The notes under the pieces: model-generated | What the model saw: only the letters and a program-made list of their open reading frames with translations | Told to the model about the DNA's origin: nothing | Databases searched by the model: none | Made by a program: the position numbers and the translations under genes | In this document: positions 972-47,714 of the stretch, piece after piece | Layout: each line of letters begins with the position of its first letter | Numbering within the stretch: the stretch's first letter is position 1 | Assembly: GCF_025118155.1 (NCBI RefSeq) | Contig: NW_026251412.1 | Location: 186,001-250,000, forward strand | Reading direction: 5' to 3' | Source: Cokeromyces recurvatus | Lineage: Eukaryota > Mucoromycota > Mucoromycetes > Mucorales > Mucoraceae | Length of the DNA stretch: 64,000 bases

Positions 972-1454
972 TCATTGCAACCATTTCACCAAATTAGCAT
1001 CTATATCAGTTGGAAGAGGAGGAAGATCTTCACTATGAAAAATATGATCCAATTCATGTAGGATCAGGAAAATTTCAGGCCAACGTACAGACCAGAAAGA
1101 GATAGATGGAAAAATTTTTAGTAAGAAAGAAAGAGGGTCTTTGATGGATCTGGGCATTTGTAGACGACGGTGTATGTGCAGACATTCAGTAGCATGGATA
1201 CGAGAAATATTAACTGCAGGATGGAAAAGATAGGGACGAGGTTTTCCACCAGGAAGCCAACCAAGACGCCAGTGAAGTACCTGGTTACGCTCCATACGCG
1301 TCATTGGGAGCCATAAAATAGGATCAATCACCAAGGTTGGACGACAAGTAGAGATCGTTTGGGCATTTGGACCATTACAGAGAGTGTCATTACTTTCTTG
1401 TAACAATTGTTGTTTCAGCGATTTAAAAACACGACGGTCCAATGTTTCCAGCAC
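972..1454 (-). pseudogene. LINE (non-LTR retrotransposon) ORF2 C-terminal remnant
   Basis: Open 160-codon block on the minus strand. It contains a tryptophan-rich tail with the string LGWLPGGKPRPYLFHP, then HATECLHIHRRL and DPLSFLLKIFP. These residues recur in a second, stop-containing copy at 42729-43146 (LGWLPGG, then HATECLHMHTRL and DPLSFLLN). The Cys/His arrangement and its place at the end of the reading frame fit the C-terminal end of a non-LTR retrotransposon polymerase protein common in Mucorales. No reverse transcriptase motifs are present, so this is a 5'-truncated fragment, with the real 3' end towards lower coordinates. That it is a LINE is from family recognition; the repeat relationship to the second copy is seen directly. 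Confidence 0.6.
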
Positions 1455-2098
1455 AAGTTCACATTTTTTTTATCAAAGAGAGTTGGAGACTAATTTATAC
1501 CATTGTGAGCGGCTTGAAGCTGTGTGTGAATAAGGCAGTAGTTTTTGTATCAAAGTTTCATCAGGTTAGTTGTAGTGTTCTAGTTATGTATTTGGCTTGT
1601 AATATCGTTATGTATATGATGATGTATTACATAATATCTTATAATATATATAGGTCAGAGTCATGAAGGACCGAATGATGTTATAGTTATCAGTAATGCA
1701 CTTTATGCATACATGCATACACTATTATTTGAGTTCGGTATACAAGACATTCTTGTGATGAGAAAAATAATATAATAATAGATATTGACGTTACGAGACA
1801 ATGATAAGCAAAACATAGTGTAAATGTGATATTTCTTCTAGAATATCAAATAAAAAATATTAAAAAATAAAAAAATAACATTAAGACAAAAAGAGTCAAT
1901 GAGAGCGAACAATAGTTCTAAGGTCAATAGTTTTTATTTAGCTATTTATAAGAATTGTTAAAGAAGTCTGACATAAGATGTGAATCAGAAAAGTGTTAGT
2001 TACTACCGAATAAGATATGTTGTAGATAATGAAGTGTTAGAGGTTTTAATATTATTTGATGTAGTGGACCAAGAGAGTTTTTCAAGGGAATCTAGATA

Positions 2099-42429: not shown

Positions 42430-42728
42430 TTTTTTTTTCTTGTGAATAAAAAAAGGGGGAGAGGGAAATAAAATAATAAAAATTATAGGCGCTTATAGTT
42501 TAAATTCCTCGTGTACGATTAAACATTTTTTTTTTATTTTTATAAATTAAAATTTATAAAGCGACCTATGGGTACATAATATCTTTATTATATTGGATTG
42601 CCCAGGTCAGTTCGAGTTATGTGAAAAAAAGTATCTAAAAACCCTCTTATGGGACAAGAGGTAAAAAGGTAAAGGAAAGGAAAGGAAGAATAGAAGGTGA
42701 GAAAGAAAGGGGAATATTGCTAACAATT
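42430..42728. promoter_or_regulatory. BET5 promoter and LINE 3' untranslated remnant
   Basis: The first about 150 bp upstream of BET5 must act as its promoter. From about 42590 the sequence is a LINE 3' flank on the minus strand, with a potential stem CCTCTT-loop-AAGAGG at 42643-42661. Related sequences lie at 834-858 and 8698-8722. Confidence 0.45.
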
Positions 42729-43146
42729 TTAAAGAGACAACCAGTTGAGTAATTTCCTGCCTGGATCAAGAAGTAGAGGGGGTAATTTATCGTGCATTAA
42801 GTAATCTATTTCCTGTAGAATAGTATACATAACTGGCCAGCGATAGAGCCAGGCAGAAATATCCTGAGAACTTCGGTACTTATGCTGAGGGAGATGATTT
42901 AAAAGAAAGGAAAGGGGATCTGCTATTGATCGTGGCAAGAATAAACGGGTGTGCATATGCAAGCATTCAGTGGCGTGTGACCGACTAAAGTGTACATGAG
43001 GATGATATGGGCAGGCTTTAGGTATTCCTCCGGGTAACCAACCAAGACGTCATCGAATAGTTCGACTACGCTCACTGTATGTCATGGGTAACCAGAGTAT
43101 CAGATCAATAATCAGATTGGGGCGGCAAGCGGAAGTTCCTCGTGTA
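42729..43146 (-). pseudogene. LINE ORF2 C-terminal remnant, second copy
   Basis: Minus-strand reading from 43146 to the stop at 42729 gives the same tail as 972-1454: ACRPNLIIDLILWLPMTYSE, then RLGWLPGG, HATECLHMHTRL, and RSIADPLSFLLNHLP. A TGA replaces the tryptophan codon that precedes RLGW in the first copy, so it is broken. At its 5' side the Fanzor element begins exactly at 43147. The other flank of the Fanzor element carries no LINE coding sequence, so either the LINE was already 5'-truncated here or the region was rearranged after insertion. Confidence 0.7.
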
Positions 43147-43265
43147 CAGTCGTTGAAACTAGGTTGGGTCATCAAAAAAATTTGGTCAATTCCAAATTAA
43201 ATTGGGACAGAGTTGCAAGTTTGGGACACCAGTAAGAAAATGGGACATGAATACAAATATGGGAC
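43147..43265 (+). repeat. Left terminal inverted repeat of Fanzor element with 19-bp iterons
   Basis: TGGGAC starts at 43203, 43222, 43241 and 43260, an exact 19-bp period. In the Fanzor gene's orientation this is the 3' (right) end of the element, where the guide RNA of TnpB/Fanzor systems normally ends. Confidence 0.9.
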
Positions 43266-43521
43266 GAGACAATGTTAATTTCTTCAGATAAATCAAAATT
43301 AATTTTTAGAAATTTTAGTTTACCTTTTTTTGGACAAAGTTAAAAAGGAAATTTGACAAGAAATGTTAGTATCTTTTTCGGCCGAATCAGAAAGGAGATG
43401 TTAGTTTTTTGGACGTAAATATAATTTAAAAAATTGTTTACCTATTGATGAGAGTTAGAAAATGAAAGGATTTATTTTCAAGAAGACCTCTTACCTGTAG
43501 ATATCCTTAAGCCTTCGTTAA
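43147..43521 (-). ncRNA. Predicted location of the Fanzor guide RNA (omegaRNA/fRNA) scaffold
   Basis: In TnpB and Fanzor loci the guide RNA scaffold is transcribed from the 3' part of the nuclease gene and its 3' UTR up to the element end, and the guide is copied from the flank just outside. By analogy the 375 bp between the Fanzor stop and the element end would hold the scaffold, with the guide reading on the minus strand from 43146 into the LINE remnant. This is purely positional inference; I could not recognise a conserved structure by eye apart from the 19-bp iterons. Confidence 0.3.
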
Positions 43522-46355
43522 TTAAAATTCAGGCACCACATTGGAGGTGGCGCTTTGTTGGGTAAACACAGTAGGGTATCCTTAGCCGTTCCAAATAGAT
43601 CCAGCAATGGTGAACATATTTTTTGAAGCCATAACGTCACGATTCCAGAAAATATTACAGTTTTTGCGGACGAATACTTGATAGATTTTACGTTTATCAG
43701 TACCACTTCCGTATGTAATATGTTCCAAATTATTTTCGAGGCACGAATTGCAAGTCTATATAATACAAAGGTGTCAATATTCGGATTATGATCACGTAAA
43801 CATTATATACCTTGGAAGTTTTATATTCGTCTATATCCAGAAGCAGTAACTCTCCACGTTTCTCACGTATTCTTAATTGCCTGTACAGCTTTTCAACCAC
43901 GCCATGACGCAAACTTTTAAACTTGACATGAGACTTATTTTTCAAACCATCTCCAAAAACAATTAATGGCATTTTACTGCGATCACCTTCTTCAAACTTC
44001 TCCTTGTATCCTCTGCATTAAATTTATTAAGATCAATGCTTTAAGAAGAAGAATAAAAGAAATATGAACTGTACCTTGACCTTCTTTTCCCTGTATTTGG
44101 TCGATAACTACCATGATGACCGTATTGATAACTGCTTGCGATCTTGCGCCTCTTCCGCTTATTCCTTTTAGTATCCTTTCTTTTCTTTTTGTTATATTTT
44201 TTTGACCCATCAATGAGAATATTGATTGCATTTTCAATCGCTTGCTGAGAGCCTATGTAGTTACACCATTTGATTCTAGCAGTGTTAAAGCCATAAAAAT
44301 CTGTTAATGCTTGAAAATGTCGAAGGGTATATATAATATATTCTGTATATTGTTGGACATTTGTAGTTTTAGGTGAAGGTAAGTGGGTTTCAATTTGCTC
44401 TATATTCGACCTTCTCTTTCTATCTTGCTCTAACTTTCGTCGGTTGACAGTCCTATTCATGTTGTAATACTCGGCAGTTGACAAGCGTCTCAAATCGTTT
44501 TCATCATGATAGGATACGAAGACGTCAGACCTATTTGGATCAACAGTGCAAGGACGGAAGTAAAGATCTACCTCTTCACTAGTGAAATCGTCTACCTCCA
44601 GGAATACTTTATCATTGGGTGAGATGGGGTGAACCTTCCTGCAGAATGAGACCCTACATGTGTATCCGTCCGTGTACATACTGTTTAGGAACATTTTTTC
44701 TTTTCTTTGTGATAGTTGTTGTAAACCTTTAAAGCTGTATATGTAAGATGAATGTGAGTATGCTGTTTGTATCAATTAATCATAAAATGATTTCAGCTCA
44801 CCTATAGATTTTAAATTTTTTAAAATCAAAATTGTCATAGAAGCATCTTTGAGCAAAGTTAAATATCGTCTCTTCAGGTTTTTTTGGAATACATTTTCCG
44901 AAAATACTAGCTATGTTTTGACCATCTACTTTTATAAGACGCCATTTAAAACCAGGATTGGGAAATAAGTTGAACAGCCTTGGTGGCTGAAATTTTGGTG
45001 GCTGCAATCGGTTCTTGCTGTTGTCTTTTTCTGTTGATGAATTACGCTTTTTTAACTTCTTTTTCTTCTTTGGCCTTCTCCTTCGCTGGTTTGATGACTC
45101 TGCCACTTGTACAGTTTGTTGCTCTTGCCGGGCTACTTCTCTTTATGGTTGCTGATTGTCGGCAATTGTTGACTCATAATTCTCAAGTATATACCTCAAA
45201 GCCGGCAATATGTCAAAGGGAGCTTTGTTCAATGTATCTTTTGTTAAGGGGATAGCAGGTAACCTGTTCCTTATTTGCAATATTAAAGGGTTTAGGAACG
45301 CACAAATTCTTGCTTTCATTTGCTCATTTAACGAACTTGCTATGTTTTCAGCGGTAATAGTTGTCTGACCAGAGGAGAATAATGTTTCTATTACATGATT
45401 GTACACAGTGTACTTTACTTCTGGCATCTTTAGGTTCTATTCATAAATATTATTGGTTTCATTAGCAAAAAAAGTTAGACACGCGTTTGACTATACATAA
45501 CTTACGTCAAAAGAAGAGCGCAGCTTATAAATGAAATAATTGGATATTATATTTTCGAAATTTTCAATATAGTAATTGTTATAACATGTTGCAATTGCTT
45601 CACAGGCAGTCAATAAAACTTGACCATAATTTTTTATGCCTTGAGTTTCTACTAGCAAGTCTATATTGTTAAAATTATTCAACTCATCCCATGTTTCATG
45701 CAGGTGGGGGATATGTTGGAAGTATTTTTGAGCGAATTCTCTAATCTCCATATTTCCATTGATTAGCCGACACACAGAATACCAAATATTTTGCTAAAAG
45801 AATTCATTAGTCAAACCTTGTGGGTGTTTCAAAATGTAATAATTCACAAATAATTGGGCTTTGAAGACAACTTCCCTCAGGAACAGAGACAGACTTTGTA
45901 TTCTTTCTAGAATTGCGTTAAAAGTATTATTATCAGACGTTCGTATGAATGATCTTAAGGGCAACGACACTGTATATTTTTCATTTGAAGGACCCAGTTT
46001 TTGCTGAATCAATTCTGGTAAGGTTAAATTGTAGTTCATGCACTGCTTACTTCTTGCGGAAGCATGCCCTGTCTTGCCGCATGATTTGCATATCACACCT
46101 TGCGTAGATGATACAGCCTCACGCGCAATTTTTGCGTCCTTTTTGAGTTTTTTCTCTTCAAACGTATCTTTACGCTTGACGCCTTGTAAAGAGCGTTAGT
46201 TTTTCTGATAAATTGTTCAATGAGTAATTTACTTTACCTCGCTTTGCTGTTGGTTGTTTTATTTGGTTTTTTGCTACTTCCTGTTGTTCATCATACTTGC
46301 GTTGTTTCTTTAGTTTAATCAAGGCTTCGACTTTTGGATATAATTACCTACGCAT
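43522..46355 (-). pseudogene. Fanzor-type TnpB-like RNA-guided nuclease gene with in-frame stops
   Basis: Eukaryotic relative of TnpB/Cas12 (probably Fanzor2). Exons on the minus strand: about 46238-46340, 45506-46182, 44802-45436, 44075-44734, 43811-44012 and 43522-43755; phases agree at every junction. N-terminal zinc knuckle CKSCGKTGHASARSKQC, long helical region (RuvC-I side), then RuvC-I around CTVDPNRSDVFVSYH, an Arg/Lys-rich linker, LIVFGDGLKNKSHVKFKSLR, ELLLLDIDEYKTSK joined by splicing to TCNSCLEN, and the RuvC-III end FWNRDVMASKNM. The C-x2-C pair plus WNRDVxAxKNM is the TnpB zinc-ribbon/RuvC-III signature. Lesions: in-frame stops at 46344-46346, 45794-45796, 45143-45145 and 43582-43584, and the second zinc pair reads RKNC instead of C-x2-C. 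No frameshift was needed. Probably non-functional as read. Confidence 0.85.
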
Positions 46356-47495
46356 ACTTTTTTTGAAAAAAAAATAAATAGAAAGAAAGAGCAAGTAATA
46401 TTTTTGATAACTTTTTCCTATTTTATTAGCAATGGTCAGAACAATTTTATTAGATGTTGTTTCTAAATTAATCATAGTTGGCCCCACTTTGCCCTCAAAG
46501 GTGATAAATCTCTCAAGAATCATTATTTATTTTTCATATAACTATCGTTTGCGAAATAATAAAGCCAAGTAAAGTGATTAAATTACGGAAAGCCTAAGGC
46601 TCTTATATTTAATAGGAAAAAAAAAAGGGGGTAGACATCAGGTCTTGGTTCTAATCACTGTTTATACTCTATAATGTTAAGCTTAGTACAATAATAGCGC
46701 ATCAGAAAAACAGCAATTTCATATGATGTTAATCAAACAGCGATAGGTACATGATATATATATATATATATGAGATTATTCTAGATCCATAGAGTTTCTT
46801 CTTTCAGTTTGCAATCACACAAGTAACTAGATTAGCCCACTGTTTTTGTGTCTTTTTTACTTTATTTTGAGTCTGTCAATTCTTTTATATTTTATAATTT
46901 ATGCTGATACGTATCGATTATTGGCGGTTCTCTTCTTACAACTAATTTGTTTTTGTACTTTCGAATAATGTAATATGTAGACTATCAATAAAGGATCATA
47001 ATTCCGGTAAAATAAATCTCAAGTAAATCAAAAAAAGTGAGATAAAGGCAACCAAAGTCGTTTCCTTCTCTCAATAATGAAAGTGAGTGTTTCAAATACA
47101 TGAAAAATCAAGTTCACAATTTGCAATGAATTCATCAACTGTATTACAAGTTTCCCACTTGATGGAATTAAACACTAAACATATAGATATAGAGATTTTG
47201 GACTTTTAATGCAATCTTCATTCTATTTTTTTTTCAAGTGTACAAAAATGCCTCCAAAAAGAAAATTAGGTAAATATTATGATTGATGTATAGCTATATA
47301 GCATATGTCATAATATTTATTTTTAAATCCTTCTGGGAACAAAGAATCTGGGGATCCTAGACCAAGAAAAAGGTATGTTGGATGTACATATTGAAATACA
47401 CAAAGAATAACAGCGGGACATCCCATATTTACAGGTAAGTTAGCCCATTGAAGAAATGCCTCCATTCGTCCAAAAAGCTAAAAGTATCTCAATAT
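46356..47495. other. Non-coding interior of Fanzor element
   Basis: About 1.1 kb upstream of the Fanzor gene without a supportable frame. It should contain its promoter. A (TA)n run lies at 46756-46771. On the plus strand at 47248 there is an ATG followed by CCTCCAAAAAGAAAATTAG and a good GTAAAT donor, and an open stretch with GNKESGDPRPRKRYVG near 47336; together they look like the relic of a second, oppositely oriented gene, but no body of that gene remains. Confidence 0.4.
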
Positions 47496-47619
47496 GTCCC
47501 GTTTCCGTATCACTGTCCCATTTTCTTACTGGTGTCCCAACTTTGCAACTCTGTCCCAATTTAATTTGGAATTGACCAATTTTTTTTTTTTCATTGGCCC
47601 AACCTAGTTTCTTTGACTG
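47496..47619 (-). repeat. Right terminal inverted repeat of Fanzor element with 19-bp iterons
   Basis: GTCCC starts at 47496, 47515, 47534 and 47553, again a 19-bp period, mirroring the left end. Followed outward by a T/A-rich block, CCAACCTAGTTTC, and the TA duplication. Confidence 0.9.
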
Positions 47620-47714
47620 TAATAAAAACACAAATATTTTTATTTAAAAACAAAGCTAAATATTCACTACAGGAGTATATTTTTTTAATAAACAGGAATA
47701 ATGTCAAATTCTAT

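Follow-up and report, generated by a model that had tools for sequence, protein, structure and literature searches.

We conclude that the 64,000 nucleotides (nt) of Cokeromyces recurvatus DNA analysed here (the window; contig NW_026251412.1, positions 186,001 to 250,000) very probably contain a Fanzor1 pseudogene carried by a DNA transposon of this Mucorales fungus, an element that is bounded by terminal inverted repeats (TIRs), has had its ends swapped, and would have worked by a guide-RNA mechanism when intact. The gene occupies window positions 46355-43522 on the minus strand. Its six exons splice to 2526 nt (841 codons and a terminal stop at 43524-43522), and its five introns (55, 69, 67, 62, and 55 nt) are all GT...AG and keep the phase. 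Below, L and C numbers are our labels for loci and contigs of this genome.

The Fanzor1 gene and its lesions

Several lines of evidence support the assignment of the gene, from its sequence, as a multi-exon Mucorales Fanzor and more precisely as a Fanzor1. The predicted protein matches PF07282 (OrfB/Cas12f1-like zinc ribbon) at 32.2 bits against a cut-off of 26.3, despite one Cys-to-Arg change, and it aligns over its full length (query coverage, 100%) with the Mucor saturninus protein P0001 (E 5e-292, 55% identity). A sequence search of the Protein Data Bank (PDB) found the Spizellomyces punctatus Fanzor1, SpuFz1, at E 4e-8, the sole Fanzor found there by sequence; SpuFz1 is also the best fold match of modelled P0001. 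The window protein has the RuvC D, the alternative-position E (DEY), and the D of Fanzor1, as well as the TDG motif (MYTDGYTC, TDG being codon 498) described as a feature of the Fanzor1 WED domain (PMC10711439).

The first-pass annotation, made from the letters of the window alone, had read a multi-exon Fanzor gene with introns in phase, a terminal zinc ribbon and RuvC-III region preceded by DEYKTSK, and four in-frame stops plus one zinc-ribbon Cys changed to Arg, with no frameshift. An alignment with eight homologues agrees with this gene model and with these lesions, and the motifs are borne out by PF07282, by SpuFz1, and by the aligned D-E-D residues. The start codon at 46355 is matched by the ATG of paralogues L039 and L046, and no frameshift is required anywhere in the reading. 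At every stop column at least three of the eight homologues read through. The annotation had cautioned that the stop at 45796-45794 could follow a splice acceptor; this was not confirmed, as all eight homologues run across the position without a gap, and this stop is therefore a lesion. A weakly conserved linker holds the one at 45145-45143. Where all eight homologues have a zinc-ribbon Cys, the window gene has R794 (43668-43666). The RuvC acidic residues D542, E759, and D804 are kept and are invariant across the nine aligned sequences, and codons 364-821 form a single open stretch.

Table 1. Features of the Fanzor1 gene, its element, and the adjoining repeat (window coordinates)
Feature	Position	Strand	Remarks
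Fanzor exon 1	46238..46355	-	start codon 46355; stop lesion 46346-46344
Fanzor exon 2	45506..46182	-	CCHC-like CKSCGKTGHASARSKQC at 46090-46040; stop lesion 45796-45794
Fanzor exon 3	44802..45436	-	stop lesion 45145-45143
Fanzor exon 4	44075..44734	-	TDG motif (codon 498); RuvC-I VDPNRSD (D542); free of stops
Fanzor exon 5	43811..44012	-	RuvC-II side, FGDG and DEYKTSK (E759)
Fanzor exon 6	43522..43755	-	zinc ribbon (Cys site to Arg, 43668-43666); RuvC-III NRD (D804); stop lesion 43584-43582
Conserved 3' motif TTAAGGATATCTACAGGTAAG after stop codon	43490..43510	-	TACAGGTAAG part at 43490-43499; motif scans
Left TIR, type B (TA-CAGTCG...), 3' side of gene	43145..43266	.	inverted-repeat pairs and genome-wide end search
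Right TIR, type B, terminating GACTGTA	47496..47621	.	inverted-repeat pairs and genome-wide end search
Type-A TIR, inner part, outermost 12 nt lost (A ends start TACTTCAAATTCAGACAATGTTA)	43267..43353	-	matches to ends L043, L045, L044, L041
5'-region remnant of second, type-B Fanzor element	46540..47409	+	piecewise DNA matches
3' end of second, type-B element	47407..47624	+	own TACAGGTAAG at 47430-47439; matches to other copies
Dispersed repeat copy, left of Fanzor element	42514..43134	-	flanking repeat 42502-42516 / 43133-43147

The family is large in this 28-Mb genome: at least 107 Fanzor-related loci were found (fragments included, matches within 3 kb joined), or 146 with weaker matches, and 60 of the 70 matches to the PF07282 profile lie above the Pfam cut-off. 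In five paralogues (C21:28299, C64:362203, C62:992082, C45:303372, and C33:196313) the match to the RuvC-I exon is free of stops; the search for intact paralogues that the first-pass annotation proposed thus yielded many relatives and these five partial candidates, with no wholly intact copy shown among them. The C-terminal region aligns with those of the homologues, and neither outcome that the annotation had named as refuting (failure of this region to align, or lack of any TnpB/Fanzor match) came about. A RuvC-region tree, a placement it had likewise proposed, makes a Gilbertella protein the sister of the window gene (support, 1.00), whose terminal branch is 0.10. The annotation had also called the gene recently inactivated. 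Inactivation stands; recency is plausible, given the open RuvC-I exon, the kept splice sites, and the terminal branch; synonymous change is saturated and gave no date. One close Fanzor pair has a dN/dS of 0.23, which suggests that the family was earlier under selection.

A TIR-bounded element of apparently chimeric build

The gene sits in a 4.5-kb element (43145-47621) with TIRs of about 120 nt beginning TA-CAGTC, a setting that goes beyond the first-pass annotation. The inverted repeats pair 43174-43265 with 47496-47587 (92 nt, 89%) and 43145-43180 with 47586-47621 (36 nt, 81%). This carrier of the window Fanzor1 is a eukaryotic DNA transposon and does not belong to IS607. Its type of end (type B, TACAGTCGNNGAAACTAGGNNGGG) occurs at 131 places in the genome at three or fewer mismatches, and a second type (type A, TACTTCAAATTCAGACAATGTTA) occurs at 75; the reversed control gave 0 for each. 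Among the matches listed, which cover 100 of the 131 type-B ends, 24 convergent pairs with a spacing of 1.3-5 kb can be formed, and every one encloses a Fanzor match; three shorter pairs resemble miniature inverted-repeat transposable elements. Fanzor matches are likewise enclosed by 9 of 11 type-A pairs and, by tblastn, by a tenth (L044), the remaining one being C20:126291. At L007 (C5:347840-351037), a single pair of type-A ends encloses two Fanzor zinc-ribbon matches, one on each strand. A type-A end read outwards is CTAACATTGTCTGAATTTGAAG|TA (e.g., in L043 and L044), which resembles a branch point followed by a 3' splice site right where the element terminates; this may be coincidence.

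TA stands at both element ends, and nothing longer is repeated in any of five elements whose two flanks were compared by eye (L047, L050, L064, L065, and L066). The TA flanks make the ends look Tc1/mariner-like in sequence, but we do not file them as Tc1/mariner because no transposase sharing them was found. DDE_3 transposase matches (about 150 of 184 used) are not enriched, lying within 2.5 kb of 1 of the 100 listed type-B ends and 0 of 75 type-A ends, against 2.7 per 100 at random. DDE_1 gave one match (C15:48756), and a search with PF01359 was uninformative, its controls being without a match as well.

By sequence comparison, the element looks chimeric, with the Fanzor gene and a type-A terminus lacking 12 nt set between type-B ends. 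On the left, the ends of L043 and L045 match from 43267 and those of L044 and L041 from 43291. On the right, DNA matches of 67-71% to L049, L054, and L058 begin at 46540, more pieces reach 47409, and 47407..47624 matches the ends of seven other copies at 75-79% (C38, C56, C50, and four places on C1). On these matches, a second, type-B Fanzor element is present (46540-47409 and 47407 onward) whose gene is mostly deleted. A 330-nt derivative on C30 has the same B|A junction and is 93.6% identical to 43145-43358, which argues that a chimeric element has moved. The derivative (L052 1398-1729, C30:24897-25225) is a small fold-back element, and both of its arms carry the junction between B-TIR and A-TIR.

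The tree, which required at least 130 aligned residues and kept 49 of 67 sequences (L001, L005, L006, L025, L057, and 13 proteins were left out), places the window gene in a group of copies with type-A or untyped ends. Type-B ends are carried by several other groups (L020 and kin; L066; L050; L047 and kin).

The gene might instead be native to type-B elements, the A-like terminus being an ancestral inner part of the B element, with no swap at all. We consider this unlikely, though it is the strongest competitor. It would account for the presence of the same broad Fanzor clade in type-B elements (L047, L050, L053, L064, and L065), for the grouping of the A-type copy L045 with B-type copies, and for the B|A junction in the C30 derivative. 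At the left end, however, other B copies match no further than 43266, the exceptions being the C30 derivative and one further match of L065, which reaches 43300; it is from 43267 on that the ends of L043 and L045 match. The copies nearest to the window gene in the tree are A-type or untyped, and its 3' cassette, the stretch from the motif behind the stop codon to the element end, is 345 nt, against 128-218 nt in other elements.

It is very unlikely that the gene is alive, its stops being sequencing errors, read through, or inside unrecognised introns. The lack of frameshifts, the kept splice sites and D-E-D residues, and the open codons 364-821 would suit a living gene, but all eight homologues continue ungapped across 45796-45794 and have Cys in place of R794, and stops occur in many paralogues as well. 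A truncated or domesticated regulator made from that open C-terminal part, without the REC part, is scarcely credible, since the zinc ribbon is damaged and the final 20 codons are cut off, even if the active-site residues are kept.

The 3' motif and cassette

Behind the stop codons of Fanzor genes in several clades, and with both end types, stands TACAGGTAAG, often with CTTAA-N-GAT ahead of it (in full, CTTAA-N-GAT-N-TACAGGTAAG). We examined 32 Fanzor 3' ends at which the C-terminal match fixed the position (those of L045, L007b, and the window were set by hand); these are related copies and not independent, L024 and L028 being identical in the tree. In the 300 nt that follow the last coding match, TACAGGTAAG is exact at 14 of 32 ends, present at one mismatch or fewer at 20, and present at two or fewer at all 32. 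The upstream and reversed controls each gave 0/32 at up to two mismatches; the antisense control gave 0/32 at up to one and 5/32 at two. Random window stretches, the real copies among them, gave 33/3200 at up to one mismatch and 439/3200 at up to two, and shuffles gave 20/3200 at up to one. In view of the random and antisense controls, the two-mismatch cases are partly chance, yet several share one place (L021, L003, and L004). The window itself contains two exact copies, each of them at the 3' end of a Fanzor element (43490-43499, minus strand; 47430-47439, plus strand), where 0.08 would be expected. A longer form, TTAANGATN{2,7}TACAGGTAAG, occurs at 20 places in the genome (reversed control, 0). 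By eye, 18 of these are within 2 kb of a Fanzor match (for two, on C56, weaker matches only), one is 203 nt inside a type-A end, and the remaining one is C20:201842.

Seven type-A elements have 173-203 nt between the motif and their end, nine type-B elements have 171-197 nt, and looser motif forms in other groups give 128-218 nt. The lengths for the type-A, type-B, and window elements come from 17 of the 20 long-form places; the other three have no typed end in reach. The length in the window is the sum of 223 nt of A-type sequence and a B TIR of 122 nt.

The motif appears to have a function, because it is conserved while the adjoining noncoding DNA fails to align. Its sequence looks like a 3' splice site set right against a 5' splice site (a branch-point-like CTTAA, and TACAG directly before GTAAG), and the motif may equally open a guide RNA. 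We dropped the idea that the motif pairs with a complementary 6-mer, as the 6-mer lies downstream in 1 and upstream in 2 of 20 copies. By inference, the cassette has a role in making the guide RNA. We tentatively suggest, as an idea that may well prove wrong, that a near-constant cassette for each clade, opening at the stop codon like a splice site and common to deeply split Fanzor clades and two TIR families, marks a guide-RNA system (the 5' boundary of the scaffold, or a messenger/guide splice site), that end swaps rewire it, and that the window copy, its cassette about twice too long, is a failed swap.

The mechanism would run as follows. In an insect-virus Fanzor1, the guide RNA is reported to span the TIR and target duplication and to run ~15 nt further (PMC10711439). 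By analogy, the guide of each element here would come from the flank adjoining its 3' end, and the intact protein would be directed by RNA read from that end into flanking DNA. The guided protein would cut the vacated target site, which would help to retain or recopy the element, and the ends would be moved by a transposase supplied in trans. Exchange of TIRs would alter the guide-RNA scaffold. By fusing one terminus inside another, the swap would have lengthened the window cassette and left a scaffold about 165 nt too long. This lengthening probably shifted the guide-RNA module out of register and freed the gene from selection. The decay of the window gene is consistent with a failed swap, but is no proof of one.

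Several observations weigh against parts of this account. The nodes joining the window gene to A-type copies are not strong (0.53, 0.84, and 0.90). The A-type copy L045 falls among B-type copies, so that either mixing of genes and end types is wider or the tree is in error, and L007 entered the tree as two genes merged. At about 46390-46539, A and B copies both align across at low similarity, leaving the right junction uncertain. The A-type part of the window cassette is by itself 223 nt already, and none of the five type-A 3' ends folded beats its shuffles (z, -0.03 to 1.80). The other unsaturated pairs have dN/dS values of 0.47-1.01, with stops in one or both copies, and one nearly saturated pair has 0.13. 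The fold evidence comes from the homologue P0001, whose model is mediocre (pLDDT, 64).

Related systems and the neighbouring repeat

The Fanzor1 element itself is of a known kind; the 3' cassette is the novel lead. SpuFz1 (PDB 8gkh, 9ceu-9cez) has the DPN, DEYKTS, and NRD motifs in common with the window protein, but its identity is about 15% in the fold alignment, its host and element are different, and the window copy is broken. The Parasitella parasitica Fanzor1, PpFz1 (PDB 9cf0 and 9cf1; PMC11423790), gave no PDB sequence match at E <= 10 from the window protein. Fanzor1 in transposons of Mucorales is in print (PMC3627910, PMC11423790). The Fanzor1 of Mucor, Rhizopus, and Phycomyces (MCi, ROr, and PBl) are likewise in Mucorales transposons, some with TIRs and without a transposase (PMC3627910); compared with these families, the ends here are TA-flanked CAGTC.. 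and CTTCAAATTC.., and a longer duplication was not seen. Fanzor1 in Tc1/mariner elements such as PUl-4 combines Fanzor, TIRs, and terminal TA, as here, but the TIR identity with a transposase-bearing element described for them (PMC3627910) was not found here. Chimeric Fanzor elements have been described for other hosts (PMC3627910). In our searches of the Fanzor literature, mainly by titles and opening lines of abstracts, a conserved signal at the stop codon was not found, which does not prove its absence.

To our knowledge, two questions are open: what divides Fanzor transcripts into messenger and guide RNA, and in what way a single Fanzor lineage copes with different transposon ends. This genome, in which two TIR families go with related proteins and more than 100 Fanzor-related loci are found, along with a short conserved stop-codon signal and a near-constant spacing from it to the element end, suits a direct test. 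The window copy would be a natural experiment, its ends having been exchanged and its gene having since decayed.

A copy of a dispersed repeat adjoins the left end of the Fanzor element, and the duplication that flanks it, AARTTCCTCGTGTAC, extends over the first bases of that element. We take it, from its look, to be a 5'-truncated long interspersed nuclear element (LINE), which Pfam did not confirm, finding no family for two coding remnants of the repeat family. These two remnants are 48% identical to each other. An open frame of 165 amino acids elsewhere in the window (972-1469, minus strand), with no Pfam family, has this 48% identity over about 100 residues to a coding remnant of the repeat. 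An empty-site proof of the target site by way of the repeated left flank was rejected, as that flank is the repeat copy itself, inserted beside the element, and an apparent shared end of the repeat matches at query position 285 is an artefact of where the window copy stops. The window copy included, 40 of 63 candidate copies were scored. An unusually large share of them adjoins Fanzor elements: sixteen of the 39 others have a TIR or Fanzor match no more than 2.5 kb away, against 1.6 at random (maximum 6 in 300 trials); the DDE_3 control gave 2 against 1.1 expected. Among the other copies are those on C13, C38, C6, and C10 (L067, L079, L078, and L080). In all 16 copies, oriented by eye, and in the window, Fanzor adjoins the 5' side of the repeat.
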